From Algiphilus aromaticivorans DG1253 (GTDB lineage: Bacteria; Pseudomonadota; Gammaproteobacteria; Nevskiales; Nevskiaceae), in assembly GCF_000733765.1 (NCBI RefSeq), contig NZ_JPOG01000001.1, positions 2,418,001-2,482,000 of the forward strand: 64,000 nucleotides of DNA, given 5' to 3'. Position 1 is the first letter of the stretch, and each line of letters starts with the position of its first letter. A model generated the notes under the pieces. It was not told the origin of the DNA and ran no database searches. It saw nothing but the letters and a program-made list of their open reading frames with translations. This document shows positions 3,558 to 51,878 of this stretch, in pieces. The position numbers were made by a program, and so were the translations under genes.

Positions 3558-7712
<4,155 letters not shown>

Positions 7713-11747: not shown

Positions 11748-12938
<1,191 letters not shown>

Positions 12939-13285: not shown

Positions 13286-13661
13286 CCGGCCCAGGCATTC
13301 TTGGCCCGAGCGTTCGCCGCGCTACGACCTGCGACCGGCAAGTCGGTCGCGGCTACACGGCCGGTAAAACGCAAACGCACTGACCACTGCATATCTCGCG
13401 CAGCGATCGCCGCAGTCACTAAGCTCGGTCTTCCTGACCTCGTCGCTGATTCGCCGGTCGCATCCCCGCTGCGCGGGGCCCCTGCTCCTCGGCTCACAGC
13501 TCCAAGTGACCCGGCCCGGGCCTTTGGGCTGCGCTTCCTGCTCCGCCCAAAGTCCAGGGCGCACTTCCTGTGTGCCCGTCGGGCGCTTCGCGCCCGACCC
13601 ATGGCCCGGGCGTTCGCCGCGCTGCGACTTGCCACTGGCAAGTCGGTCGCGGCGAACCCAG

Positions 13662-13700
13662 ATTCGAACTGGCTCTCTGTCCGAGGTCGCCAGTTCGAAT
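13662..13700. repeat. Inverted pair of tRNA-Thr TpsiC-arm fragments
   Basis: ATTCGAACTGGC (13662-13673) and its exact complement GCCAGTTCGAAT (13689-13700) face each other across 15 nt. Both match the TpsiC arm of the tRNA-Thr gene that starts 56 bp to the right. The right-hand copy extends to 18 nt complementary to the tRNA (13683-13700 against 13772-13789). The fragments are therefore tRNA-derived and were copied in both orientations. Confidence 0.85.
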
Positions 13701-13755: not shown

Positions 13756-13831
13756 TGGTGCCCACCGCCAGATTCGAACTGGCGACCTCACCCTTACCAA
13801 GGGTGTGCTCTACCAACTGAGCTAGGTGGGC
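13756..13831 (-). tRNA. tRNA-Thr (GGT)
   Basis: This is a complete 76-nt cloverleaf. The 5' end is GCCCACCTAGCTCAGTTGG, the anticodon loop is TTGGTAA (anticodon GGT), the T arm is CCAGTTCGAATCTGG and CCA is encoded. It is the last tRNA before tuf, the position of thrT in E. coli. Confidence 0.96.
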
Positions 13832-14006
13832 GTTGTGCTGAATATTACCGCTACTGCTGCTTGACCGCAGTCACTGGACTCGGCTCCTGCCTCGTCAAGT
13901 GACCCGGGCCGGGCCTTCCTGGCCCGCCCGCTGAAGCGCATGGCTTCAGCCCAACTGAGCTAGGTGGGCGTTGTGCTCAATAATACCGCTGCTGCTACCA
14001 GTTTAC
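13832..14006. repeat. Hairpin module with duplicated tRNA-Thr 5' end
   Basis: The first 19 nt of tRNA-Thr (13813-13831) are repeated exactly at 13951-13969, 138 bp away, together with a diverged copy of the 29-nt leader. Between them, on the plus strand, are the 34-nt conserved-loop hairpin (13870-13903), a second hairpin with loop TTCCT, and GCTGAAGC-GCATG-GCTTCAGC. The copied tRNA stops in the D loop at G19, where the hairpin starts. Confidence 0.85.
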
Positions 14007-14080: not shown

Positions 14081-14421
14081 ATACGTTGCGAATAGTAGCT
14101 TTTCCGCCACTTGGCCGCAGTCACTAGACTCGGCTCCTGCCTCGTCAAGTGACCCGGGCTGAGCCGTCCTGGCTCAGCCGCTGAAGCGCATGGCTTCAGC
14201 CCATTGAGCTACACCCGCATTTCGTCGCGAATAGTAGCTTTTCCGCCGCTTGGCCGCAGTCACTAGACTCGGCTCCTGCCTCGTCAAGTGACCCGGGCTG
14301 AGCCGTCCTGGCTCAGCCGCTGAAGCGCATGGCTTCAGCCCATTGAGCTACACCCGCGTTTAGTGCGAATGGTAGCCCTTCCGCTGCTTGGCTGCCGCCT
14401 CGCAGCGAGGCTTGGAGAAGA
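14081..14421. repeat. Two tandem 138-139 bp units with truncated tRNA-Gly 5' ends
   Basis: The 18-nt tRNA-Gly 5' end at 14063-14080 recurs exactly at 14201-14218 and 14340-14357. Each extra copy is followed by a leader-like AT-containing stretch (GAATAGTAGCTTTTCC, slightly changed in the second) and preceded by the module of three hairpins. Conserved-loop hairpins lie at 14120-14153 and 14259-14292. The breakpoint in the tRNA D loop is the same as for tRNA-Thr. No gene is present; 14358-14421 is plain spacer before tRNA-Tyr. Confidence 0.88.
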
Positions 14422-48983: not shown

Positions 48984-49002
48984 CTGGCGGAGGGGTGGGA
49001 TT
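48984..49002 (-). other. att-like remnant: 3' end of tRNA-Ser
   Basis: Nineteen bases match the 3' end of tRNA-Ser(CGA) at 51787-51806 (T-stem strand, acceptor strand and CCA) except for one missing G in a run. The rest of a tRNA is absent. Like the intact gene it is followed on the minus strand by a terminator. It is the position expected for the far attachment site of an element that integrated at the tRNA 3' end. Confidence 0.7.
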
Positions 49003-49160
49003 GCAGGCGGCTGCGCTGCCCGCCCGTGGGGCTCGCTGCGCTCGCGCCATCCGCCTTCGGCGGACGGTCGAACCCGGTATTGTTTTCGTGGGTTCGAATC
49101 TGGAGCAACGCGTTTCGTGCGCGAGGGCGCGCGGCATACGCGCTTTCGCAAATCTGGCGG
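48985..49160. repeat. tRNA-Ser-derived repeat, left copy
   Basis: The unit starts with a tRNA-Ser 3' end, contains the inverted pair TCGAACCC/GGGTTCGA (49068-49097), then ATCTGGAGCAACGCG, and ends GCGCTTTCGCAAATCTGGCGG. A second copy with the same block order lies at 51522-51642. The left copy has about 55 extra bases, including CCGCC-TTCG-GCGG. Bases 49161-49366 hold no gene that I can support. Confidence 0.75.
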
Positions 49161-49366
49161 CCGAGAGCGACGAAACGGAGAACTACGTCTACGCTATGGC
49201 CCTCTATGCGCCTCCTAAATGGCGCTACGGTCAATGGCTCGAACTGGTGGAGAGCTGCCTGCCCGCTTCGGGATTGGTACTTGAAAAAGCCGCCGTTGAC
49301 GGAGTTCCGCGAGCTTTCCCGCTACGATCGAGTTTCGAGAATCAACGCCGACGCTTCGCCAAGCCG

Positions 49367-50260
49367 TCACATGGTCCTGCTTTCTCGAAGCGTCTCCTTG
49401 AACAGCTCGAAGGCCGTCGTCCCCCTCCGATCCGGGTAATAGAGGTGGTAGCCGGCAAAGGGCTCGCACCACGACTCCAGCAGGCGAGTGAGACGGCCAT
49501 CGGCAATCGGCGCTGCCACGAGGTCCTCCAGAATGTAGAGGATGCCGAAGCCTTCAAGGGCGGAGGCCACTAGCAGCTCGCCGTCGTTGAACACCGGCCC
49601 GCGTCCTGGCACGACCGTGACCGCATGGCCGTCGCGCTCAAACGACCAGGGAGACACGTCCCCATAGGCGTTGCCATAGGCGACACAGCGATGCGCCGCG
49701 AGGTCGGCGGGCTGCATCGGCGCCGGATGGCCGCTCAGATAGCTGGGAGCGGCCACCACAGCGACGCGAAGCGGAGGCCCGACCGGCAGCGCGATCATGT
49801 CCTTTTCCAATCGCTCGCCGAGCCGGATTCCCGCGTCGTATCGCCCCGCCACGACGTCAGTCATCCCGTCCTCCACGCACACCTCCACCTCGATGCCGGG
49901 GTGGCGGCGCATGAAGGACGGGAGCATCGGCCACAGCACTGTGTCCGCGGCGTGTTTGCCCGTCGTGATCCGGACGATGCCGATAGCTGCCCCGCGCGCC
50001 TCGGACAGTGCTTCGATCTCCTCGTCCAGTCCGGCCAGTGCCGGCGACAGGGTGGCGAGCAGGCGCTCGCCGGCAGCGGTGGGGGCGACGCTGCGCGTGG
50101 TGCGGGTGAGCAGGCGAAAGCCGAGTTGGCCCTCCAGCCGCTTCATGGTCTGACTCAACGCCGACTGTGTGACACCGAGCCGCCTCGCGGCGCGCGTGAA
50201 GCTGCGGTCGGAGGCAATCGCTGCAAAGACGGCGAGGTCGCCGAACTGATCCGGACGCAT
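49367..50260 (-). CDS. LysR-family transcriptional regulator
   Basis: The protein is 297 residues. The N-terminal winged HTH (FAAIASDRSFTRAARRLGVTQSALSQTMKRLEGQLGFRLLTRTTRSVAPTAAGE) and the C-terminal effector domain resemble the LysR subfamily that controls adjacent oxidoreductases. It is divergent from the SDR gene across a 101-bp AT-rich region with a clear inverted repeat, the usual arrangement for activation of the neighbour and self-repression. It lies inside the tRNA-Ser-bracketed islet. Confidence 0.93.
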   Translation of the reverse strand: MRPDQFGDLAVFAAIASDRSFTRAARRLGVTQSALSQTMKRLEGQLGFRLLTRTTRSVAPTAAGERLLATLSPALAGLDEEIEALSEARGAAIGIVRITTGKHAADTVLWPMLPSFMRRHPGIEVEVCVEDGMTDVVAGRYDAGIRLGERLEKDMIALPVGPPLRVAVVAAPSYLSGHPAPMQPADLAAHRCVAYGNAYGDVSPWSFERDGHAVTVVPGRGPVFNDGELLVASALEGFGILYILEDLVAAPIADGRLTRLLESWCEPFAGYHLYYPDRRGTTAFELFKETLRESRTM

Positions 50261-50361
50261 TGATGATTCCTGCTACTGGGGCCTATTACTAATTAGGCCG
50301 CTATATTTATCCATTAGTGCAACTACATAGTCGATAATTGAAGAAGAGCAGGGAGGCGACT
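50261..50361. promoter_or_regulatory. Divergent LysR/SDR control region
   Basis: This 101-bp gap is strikingly AT-rich for the window. It holds the inverted repeat GGCCTA-TTACTAAT-TAGGCC (50280-50299), an interrupted dyad with T and A at the LysR-like spacing, followed by CTATATTTATCCATTAGTG. It is the probable binding site of the LysR protein and contains both promoters. Confidence 0.6.
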
Positions 50362-51174
50362 ATGACGAAGGTTTGGTTGGTGACCGGCGCAAGCCGGGGA
50401 CTTGGACGCGAGATCGCGCGCGCAGCGCTCGATGCGGGCGAAACGGTAGTGGCGACAGCGCGATCCCTCGACGCGGTGCTCGATGCCTTCGAGAAACACG
50501 ATCGCCTGCACGCCCTCGCGCTTGATATTACCGACGCGGACGCCGCGAACTCGGTCGCCGCCGAGACCATCGAGCGGTTTGGTGCGATCGACGTGCTGGT
50601 GAACAACGCCGGCTATGCCGAATTGGGCTTCTTCGAGACCTTTACCGATGCCGCGGTACGGCGTCAGTTCGAGGTTAACCTGTTCGGCACAATGAACGTC
50701 GCGCGCGCGGTCGCCCCGCACATGCGTGTGCGTCGCTCGGGCCTCATCGTCACCATCTCGTCGGTGAGCGGGCTGGCTTCCAACGGCGGAGGAGCGGTCT
50801 ACTCGGCGTCGAAGTTCGCGGTCGAGGGATGGATGGAGGGTTTTGCGCAGGAACTGGCACCCTTGGGCGTCCGCTCGCTCCTGGTCGAGCCGGGGATGCT
50901 GCGCACCGACTTCATGGACCGGAAGTCAGCGAGTTTCGGCAGCATCGACATTCCAGACTACGTAGAGGCGATCGCGCAGTATCGATCGTTCGTGGAGGGG
51001 GCCAACGGGAACCAGCCGGGCGATCCGAAGCTGCTCGCCGCGCGGGTCGTGGCGCTTGCCTCGCAGGCCGAGACGCCATCGCGCCTCGTGTTCGGCGACG
51101 ACGCTCGGCAGTGGGCTGGCGCGAAGGTCGACCAATTGCGGAAGGAGATCACCCAGTCCGCCGATCGCGGCTGA
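50362..51174 (+). CDS. Short-chain dehydrogenase/reductase
   Basis: The protein is 270 residues from the ATG at 50362, with a GGGAGG Shine-Dalgarno. Classical SDR motifs: cofactor loop TGASRGLG (residues 8-15), NNAG (about 82-85), active-site Ser in ISSVSG and YSASK (Tyr and Lys). The Arg/Asp pattern after beta-2 (ATARSLDAV) suggests NADP(H). The substrate is unknown. It is divergent from the LysR regulator. Confidence 0.93.
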   Translation: MTKVWLVTGASRGLGREIARAALDAGETVVATARSLDAVLDAFEKHDRLHALALDITDADAANSVAAETIERFGAIDVLVNNAGYAELGFFETFTDAAVRRQFEVNLFGTMNVARAVAPHMRVRRSGLIVTISSVSGLASNGGGAVYSASKFAVEGWMEGFAQELAPLGVRSLLVEPGMLRTDFMDRKSASFGSIDIPDYVEAIAQYRSFVEGANGNQPGDPKLLAARVVALASQAETPSRLVFGDDARQWAGAKVDQLRKEITQSADRG

Positions 51175-51521
51175 TACGACAGATCAGGGAGCCGGTAAGG
51201 CTCGGCCCAGCAATGATCCTCGGGCGCATTTCCGAAAGCGCAGCTCCAACTGGACGGCCGAGGTCAGACCGAGAACCATCACCGAAACGGCGCAGGCTTT
51301 CCCGGAATCCGTTCCGGGTTGCTCCTTCCAGAATGGCTGAGCGGAGATGGAGAAACGGGAATCTTTCTGCCGTTCAAATGACCGCTTCGAGGGAGACGCC
51401 GGAGGCCTCGGAACAGCGTATACGGGGTCGGAAGCTGCCGTGTCGCACTGAATCAGTTTGCAGCCCGACCGCTTGGTGGGTGTGCAGAGATCGGCAACAA
51501 TAGAGGGCAATCGGCGGCCGA

Positions 51522-51642
51522 TGGCGGAGGAGATGGGATTGCGGACGGTCGAACCCGGGCACTGTTTCGTGGGTTCGAATCTGGAGCAGCGCGCTTCAGG
51601 CGGCTCTGGCGCGAAGCTTTCGCGCTTTCGCAAATTTGGCGG
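51522..51642. repeat. tRNA-Ser-derived repeat, right copy
   Basis: The unit starts TGGCGGAGGAGATGGGATT (a mutated tRNA-Ser 3' end), carries the inverted pair TCGAACCC/GGGTTCGA (51549-51578), then ATCTGGAGCAGCGCG, and ends GCGCTTTCGCAAATTTGGCGG. It is a direct repeat of 48985-49160 in the same orientation, on the other side of the LysR/SDR pair. Confidence 0.75.
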
Positions 51643-51657
51643 AGGGGGTGGGTATTC

Positions 51658-51691
51658 CCTACTAAGCTCGGCTCCTGCCTCGCTAAGTAGG
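51658..51691 (-). repeat. Conserved-loop hairpin, copy 5 (changed stem)
   Basis: The minus strand reads CCTACT-T-AGC, loop GAGGCAGGAGCCGA, then GCT-T-AGTAGG. Compared with the tRNA-cluster copies (GTCACT-T-GAC ... GTC-T-AGTGAC) the loop is identical and the T-T mismatch is in the same place, while several stem pairs are replaced by other Watson-Crick pairs. Confidence 0.8.
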
Positions 51692-51748
51692 CCGGGGCGG
51701 GACTTCCTGTCCCGCCCTTCGAATCCCACCCCCGATACTTCCTCCACA

Positions 51749-51787: not shown

Positions 51788-51878
51788 TGGCGGAGGGGGT
51801 GGGATTCGAACCCACGTGGGGCGTAAGCCCCCAACCGATTTCGAGTCGGTGCCGTTATGACCGCTTCGGTACCCCTCC
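51788..51878 (-). tRNA. tRNA-Ser (CGA)
   Basis: This is a complete 91-nt type II cloverleaf. The 5' end is GGAGGGGTACCGAAGCGG, the anticodon loop is CTCGAAA (anticodon CGA), the long variable arm is GGGGGCTTACGCCCC, the T arm is GTGGGTTCGAATCCCAC and CCA is encoded. It is intact and has its own promoter and terminator. Confidence 0.96.

Follow-up and report, generated by a model that had tools for sequence, protein, structure and literature searches.

The exact 12-nt inverted pair behind the tRNA-Thr gene of Algiphilus aromaticivorans DG1253 is, with a probability that we put at about 0.6, the fold-back part of a decayed Thr-type unit belonging to a palindromic, RtT-like element that resides in tRNA loops. 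That units with RtT anatomy form a family linked to tRNA genes is evident from their anatomy, recurrence and spread, from the agreement of their tRNA-derived parts with the host tRNA and from their presence or absence between relatives. The Thr unit resembles the RtT repeats of Escherichia coli tyrT and probably belongs with them. In the following, ‘the window’ refers to the whole stretch of 64,000 nucleotides that was analyzed, and coordinates are those of the window unless stated otherwise.

The inverted pair behind tRNA-Thr

The two arms, ATTCGAACTGGC (13662–13673) and GCCAGTTCGAAT (13689–13700), form an exact 12-nt inverted pair with a gap of 15 nt, and 55 nt lie between the end of the tRNA-Thr gene and the pair. 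An earlier note, made from the sequence alone, had traced both arms to the T arm of this tRNA and had described the right one as complementary to the gene over 18 nt. Both statements hold exactly: the left arm is part of a sense copy of 16 nt, and the right arm is part of an antisense copy of 18 nt, which pairs with 13772–13789 of the gene. The site comprises the following features:

11748–12938, minus strand: EF-Tu gene (Pfam), tufB by position, the next gene downstream of the Thr site
13612–13657, no strand: long palindrome adjoining the truncated sense copy, with nested palindromes beyond it, towards tufB (by eye)
13658–13673, minus strand: sense copy of tRNA-Thr positions 49–64, 16/16 nt (exact match), holding the left arm 13662–13673
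13674–13682, minus strand: 9-nt linker GGACAGAGA separating both T-arm copies
13683–13700, minus strand: antisense copy of tRNA-Thr positions 43–60 (variable loop and T arm), 18/18 nt, holding the right arm 13689–13700
13756–13831, minus strand: tRNA-Thr(GGT) (ARAGORN and Rfam), source gene of the T-arm copies

Read along the tRNA, on the minus strand, the gene is thus followed by a GC-rich hairpin with a T run (by eye), the antisense copy of positions 43–60, the linker GGACAGAGA, the sense copy of positions 49–64, which lacks the remaining 3' end and the CCA, and the palindromes. GACA-containing linkers are also seen, by eye, in several units elsewhere. When folded jointly as DNA, the T-arm pair and the first palindrome reach −37.9 kcal/mol (z = −8.5 against shuffles). 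The sequence ATTCGAACTGGC occurs at three places in the 3.8-Mb genome, all of them here, namely in the two arms and in the tRNA-Thr gene; the reversed-pattern control occurs at none.

In position and anatomy, the Thr site (13612–13700) corresponds to RtT (Rfam RF00391), as it lies directly downstream of a tRNA gene and carries antisense and sense T-arm copies. It is a single unit, in which the sense copy covers positions 49–64 only, and it has neither a complete 3' end copy nor an RtT core. RF00391 yielded no match in the window at its gathering cut-off, and none in the Thr locus at E ≤ 1. The model R1, which we built from 20 RF00391-positive units (18 of relatives, two of E. coli and none of this genome), scores the site at 11.2 bits (E = 0.19), which is no match, given that plain tRNA genes of the window score up to 17.8 bits. 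The Thr site is therefore a unit by anatomy and position and is not filed as RtT; since the score tests failed and both the core and a complete 3' copy are missing, its tie to RtT rests on anatomy, on position and on the Thr-type units of relatives.

The earlier note had also been reminded of folded recombination sites. Integron attC sites indeed share the inverted AAC/GTT arms around a hairpin, but their R boxes read RYYYAAC/GTTRRRY. The arms of the Thr pair, TTCGAAC/GTTCGAA, are derived from a tRNA and miss this consensus, so that the pair is not an attC site by this feature; the comparison with attC leaves folding or recombination in general standing.

When the tRNA-Thr gene was used as a query, 48 of the 58 genomes of the family matched, and we examined the best 30 loci, that of this genome included. 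Behind tRNA-Thr, seven of the 29 relatives carry both copies, two carry the sense copy only and 20 carry neither, although some of these absences are uncertain, as the tufB start was not located in eight of the 20 and less than 300 nt of flank were available in eight (four belong to both sets). Two genomes of one genus (G013 and G036) differ, one being empty and the other filled behind tRNA-Thr. Among the loci matched by RF00391 across the order, a Thr unit is found in one further genome (G024), while ten others show none. Two tandem Thr units of about 130 bp are present in each of G004, G015 and G014, and the Thr units of several relatives hold tRNA positions 53–76. In each of the four T-stem variants that we read (that of this genome, that of G003 and G014, that of G004 and that of G036), the antisense copy follows the T stem of its gene; in G003, G004, G014 and G036, its loop part contains mismatches. 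This tracking may reflect copying from the gene, a recent origin or selection.

Partial tRNA copies beside other tRNA genes

We surveyed four genomes for exact copies of at least 13 nt within 600 bp of the tRNA gene from which they derive, with tRNA genes masked. The flanks used were 43 in this genome (Rfam counts 44 tRNA genes), 32 of 34 in G001 (same genus), 45 of 49 in G003 (same family) and 41 of 44 in G023 (same order), and as control we exchanged flanks among tRNAs that carry different amino acids. Partial self-copies accompany 11 of the 43 tRNA genes in this genome, four in G001, three in G003 and seven in G023, against 0.4, 0.2, 0.15 and 0.7 in the control; these counts include a few copies outside the unit pattern, such as upstream antisense pieces at tRNA-Gln of G023. 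Antisense copies downstream of the gene were found for five, zero, three and three genes, respectively (control: 0.3 in this genome, 0.1 in G003 and 0.15 in G023).

Downstream units share a common order: the 3' end of the tRNA, cut in the T loop, is followed by a spacer, an antisense T arm (mostly at about 40–60 nt), a sense GGTT or GGTTCGA, palindromes and the next 3' end. The Lys and Pro units of this genome have no antisense T arm, a point against our main reading, and another small hairpin stands in its place. The boundaries of the copies are few. In the four genomes, 20 copies extend to the 3' end; measured from that end, 19 of them begin at 19 nt (Glu, Ser-gga, Arg, Gln), at 22 nt (Pro, Lys, Asn, Val) or at 24 nt (Thr), and only Ser-cga deviates, with 16 nt. 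Likewise, nine copies extend to the 5' end, and six of them are cut at 18–20 nt, just past the GG of the D loop (Gly, Thr, Pro), with exceptions in Pro-tgg (38 nt) and in tRNA-Ser of G023 (32 and 50 nt).

A 90-nt tRNA-Gln-like gene with an altered 3' half, which scores 25.1 bits with RF00005 and thus stays below the cut-off, lies upstream of the intact tRNA-Gln in G023 (contig C32), accompanied by antisense T-arm pieces. Several draft contigs of G001 (C146, C168) and G023 (C48) stop within a few bases of tRNA genes, as is expected if repeats at these places break the assembly.

In the window, the second set of downstream units belongs to tRNA-Ser:

51788–51878, minus strand: tRNA-Ser(CGA) (ARAGORN and Rfam), source gene of the second set
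51637–51733, minus strand: first Ser unit, with antisense T arm (51718–51733), REP-like palindromes and tRNA 3' end copy (51637–51652)
51522–51581, minus strand: second Ser unit, reduced, with antisense T arm (51568–51581), sense GGGTTCGA (51549–51556) and imperfect 3' end copy (51522–51540)
48985–49115, minus strand: third Ser unit, RtT-like, with antisense T arm (49087–49100), sense GGGTTCGA (49068–49075), palindromes and 3' end copy (48985–49002)

Among these, the earlier note had pointed to TCGAAC/GTTCGA pairs at 49068–49097 and 51549–51578, which are present, and to the pair GGGGGTGGG/CCCACCCCC, which we locate at 51644–51652 and 51725–51733, one base from the coordinates that it gave. 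The third unit lies 2.7 kb from the tRNA gene and has both a 3' end copy, one base shorter in a C run and followed by a terminator-like hairpin, and antisense and sense T-arm pieces. RF00391 does not match it at the gathering cut-off in the search of the window; R1, built without this genome, matches it with 30.1 bits (E = 4.3e-7), and by this score it is a member of the family.

The segment between the second and third Ser units (49140–51520) encodes a LysR-type regulator and a short-chain dehydrogenase in divergent orientation and looks like a small cargo islet bounded by 3' end copies. A copy of a tRNA 3' end is the hallmark of island integration by a tyrosine recombinase, and the units could accordingly be att-site remnants of genomic islands that integrated in tRNA genes, for which their 3' end copies and the LysR/SDR gene pair between two Ser units would speak. 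We regard this as very improbable, as the units are mostly shorter than 200 bp, often tandem and without a visible gene of their own, and as they contain an antisense T arm and a palindromic core, neither of which is, to our knowledge, part of an att site. No integrase was found among the eight window proteins (eight ORFs) that were scanned.

A second type of unit, here termed D-type, lies upstream of tRNA genes and follows a plan of its own: the 5' end of the tRNA, cut after the D-loop GG, is combined with palindromes, several of them with GGA loops, and with a copy of the 5' flank. The window holds the following:

13834–13972, minus strand: D-type unit upstream of tRNA-Thr, with the tRNA 5' end to the D loop (13951–13969), palindromes and a 5'-flank copy
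14084–14361, minus strand: D-type units of 139 bp, two in tandem, upstream of tRNA-Gly, both containing tRNA-Gly positions 1–18

Elsewhere in this genome, D-type units are found at tRNA-Gly(ccc) (2784.8–2785.2 kb), Pro-tgg (718.8–719.2 kb) and Pro-ggg (1741.6–1741.8 kb). Upstream of tRNA-Gly(ccc), a partial tRNA-Gly copy and the full one enclose a group II intron sequence (RF02012, 101 bits; positions 1948–2091 of locus L053), with a second intron match (RF00029, 64 bits) at 4368–4444 of the same locus. The idea that the GGA-loop palindromes of upstream units act as CsrA sponges was dropped, as the transcribed strand of the Lys and Pro downstream units shows TCC (by eye).

Relation to RtT and spread over genomes

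The anatomy of the downstream units equals that of RtT at tyrT-tyrV of E. coli K-12 (rttR, tpr; RF00391). There, 19-nt 3' end copies AATCCTTCCCCCACCACCA stand 160, 338 and 516 nt behind tyrV, i.e. 178 bp apart, and 157 nt behind tyrT. Each distal unit contains a 10-nt antisense piece, at 60 nt, and the tyrT-tyrV spacer contains one at 69 nt; the sense piece AAGGTTCGA follows at 81–84 nt of the unit, with one base changed in one of three distal units, and palindromes around ACCCGAAGGGCGA come next. T-loop-cut tRNA 3' copies, tandem units (178 bp in E. coli), antisense and sense T-arm pieces and palindromes with a core (CCCGAAGGG in E. coli) are thus common to both systems. Unlike in E. coli, the units here belong to other tRNAs (Ser, Glu, Asn, Pro, Lys and Thr, and in relatives Tyr, Gln, Arg, Val and others), use further boundaries (22 and 24 nt), show the core in reversed orientation relative to the tRNA at Pro-cgg and include upstream units with tRNA 5' ends (D loop), and the Thr site is devoid of the core.

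RF00391 scores the four E. coli units at 132.9–137.5 bits. It also matches the Gln unit of G023 (43.9 bits, E = 2.8e-5) and Arg units (39 and 31.9 bits), all below its cut-off of 45 bits. Across the window's order, it matches 21 of 85 genomes, 11 of them above the cut-off, and among 14 control genomes only E. coli; this search gave no match in A. aromaticivorans, G001 or G003. We examined 30 of the 53 matches listed, and in 27 of these loci a tRNA gene lies 5' of the unit on the same strand (Tyr 14, Gln 6, Arg 4, Ser 3), in 24 cases within 50 nt and in three at 206–226 nt. In the remaining three, a tRNA 3' end stands at the unit's edge with no gene in the locus, and two of these lie close to a contig end. 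In the loci of one family (f6), the unit is often found between tRNA-Tyr and tRNA-Gly-Thr, which is the tRNA order of this window.

Two Salmonella Paratyphi A genomes are listed as differing by a 175-bp tandem repeat at the rtT RNA (PMC2658671), and rttR appears among small RNAs with a REP predicted by a tool (PMC12306157). In the literature within our reach, which excludes most subscription papers, we found only passing mentions of rtT or rttR, and we make no claim that the spread of RtT is unpublished.

R1 has only 13 base pairs, because the stems vary in length, and is mainly a sequence profile with little structure. An earlier MAFFT alignment of mixed units (A1) was set aside, as the core was misaligned in some rows. 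In this genome, R1 matches the Ser-gga (47 bits), Glu (35.7 bits) and Ser-gct (28.8 bits) units in addition to the Ser-cga unit at 48985–49115. Weak matches were not counted as units, because tRNA genes themselves score with R1 (17.8 and 15.4 bits in the window, and up to 20 bits for a match overlapping a tRNA gene). The Lys unit scores weakly, with 12.3 bits on the opposite strand. A match of 25.5 bits opposite Arg-ccg (L070) was left aside, as there is no 3' end copy of that tRNA.

At E ≤ 1e-3, R1 matches 149 of 369 sampled genomes of the class and 118 of 272 genera, counts that include uninspected matches near the threshold; at most eight candidates were scored per genome, and the genomes included three that had supplied sequences to the model (G021, G023 and G026). 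Of 29 new class loci examined, 25 have a copy of at least 12 nt of the neighboring tRNA's 3' end and four do not. At E ≤ 1e-6, it matches 54 of 299 genomes of the phylum, 34 of them outside the class and 33 of these in one family; 16 phylum loci were assessed within the pooled set only.

This pooled set comprises 76 loci found by RtT models or taken from E. coli, of which 71 have a tRNA gene. A 3' end copy is found at 69 of 119 distinct tRNA genes, a count that describes RtT units and not all tRNA genes, as the loci were selected by RtT models. Of these 69 copies, 61 measure 18–19 nt and one each 12, 14 and 24 nt; five reach the script limit of at least 40 nt and are probably whole duplicated genes. 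In RtT-model loci, the 3' copy lies at a median distance of 155 nt. It counts against our main reading that the antisense score, 13.2 of 19 with the tRNA's own unit, drops only slightly, to 11.7, with the unit of another tRNA (10.3 for tRNA genes without 3' copies), because T arms share TTCGAA.

The search for inverted T-arm pairs outside tRNA genes that the earlier note had proposed gave 16 places in this genome for TCGAACN{5,35}GTTCGA and six for the reversed pattern. Of the 16 places, eight are located behind a tRNA gene (three Ser genes, Glu and Thr), the farthest at 2.7 kb. A single local inversion, by which that note would have explained the pair if it stood isolated, is insufficient, as the arrangement recurs at several tRNA genes, both in this genome and in other genera. 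The note's view that T-arm sequence is repeatedly copied in inverted orientation beside tRNA genes, together with hairpin modules, is thus borne out. Copying through a folded or template-switched strand is a possible origin of the T-arm copies. As a full account, it would have recurrent local switching at a T-arm hairpin create the inverted copy and the tandem duplication with no element involved: T arms are palindromic, most duplication joints fall in tRNA loops, and the Thr site is just an antisense and a sense copy at such a joint. This account is nevertheless improbable in view of the shared core, the fixed spacing at RtT-model loci and the few preferred boundaries across genera. The fixed anatomy, the small number of boundaries and a palindromic core that extends from E. 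coli to this order speak for an inherited or spreading element over repeated independent accidents.

The palindromic element: DNA or RNA

Of the 61 units with 18–19-nt copies, 58 have a CCCnnnGGG core and 56 a sense anchor. The palindromic element (E) of these 56 anchored units folds as four hairpins in 39 cases, with a mean z of −2.84 and 33 of the 56 below −2; its first arms occur in 40 distinct versions, most of which still pair.

The units could instead be functional RNA, transcribed with the tRNA and acting as a small RNA, a processing signal or a Rho-dependent terminator. Termination takes place within the E. coli tyrT repeats, RtT has an Rfam model and, in E. coli, an annotated non-coding RNA (rttR), and structure is kept across varied stems. 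A tandem GA motif in RtT RNA is marked, according to PMC7657543, by an extra covarying base pair; this treatment of RtT as RNA stands against our main reading and fits an RNA function too. We nonetheless consider a functional RNA unlikely. The stems of 60 distinct elements contain 1046 Watson-Crick, eight G·T and six A·C pairs, whereas the same script counts 2276, 23 and two in tRNA stems (Fisher p = 0.016); with a stricter cut, the G·T to A·C ratios are 8:6 and 17:3 (p = 0.12), so that the bias towards G·U expected of RNA is not clear, and both p-values are optimistic because the rows are related. These counts mildly favor DNA rather than RNA as the conserved level. The Pro-cgg unit likewise points to the DNA level, as it matches R1 on the strand opposite the tRNA (L051, 1435–1549; 22.6 bits, E = 1.5e-5), although this barely exceeds matches overlapping tRNA genes, which reach 20 bits. 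Furthermore, a terminator-like hairpin precedes several units (by eye), and the presence of units is patchy.

If the Thr pair is the fold-back part of a decayed unit, as we prefer to read it, the antisense and sense T-arm copies would pair in the folded strand, and E would form a row of hairpins standing out from the T loop. At the DNA level, E would be a palindromic, non-autonomous insertion that takes up residence in tRNA loops, with the duplicated tRNA end keeping the gene whole; the units would then multiply in tandem via unequal recombination and finally decay. The Thr site has a truncated sense copy, next to which stand other, nested palindromes.

The units share with REP/BIME sequences and their RAYT transposases the character of short dispersed palindromes, several of them in inverted pairs; unlike these, they carry parts of the host tRNA, and this genome has no match to the RAYT-type Y1 transposase domain (PF01797). 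No transposase or recombinase has been linked to the units, which weighs against our reading. The genome also contains REP-like palindromes (L075–L085; e.g. 2045713–2045891 and 1162762–1162940 of the genome), several of which form inverted pairs about 100 bp apart and which share hairpins with the D-type units.

In a wider and more tentative extension, RtT might be a single branch within a large family of palindromic elements that are non-autonomous and have fixed insertion points in tRNA genes (after A58, after T55, at Thr position 53 and after D-loop G19). By copying the outer portion of the tRNA, they would keep the gene intact, and they would often have an antisense T arm corresponding to the target, which might guide a recombinase.

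A formerly unexplained inverted repeat is now linked to RtT, which is annotated in E. coli, and, by the matches of R1, such units follow tRNA genes in many of the genomes sampled from the class. If these elements do target tRNA loops without breaking the gene, they would represent a mode of tRNA-gene parasitism or of tRNA-linked regulation that is testable in E. coli K-12.
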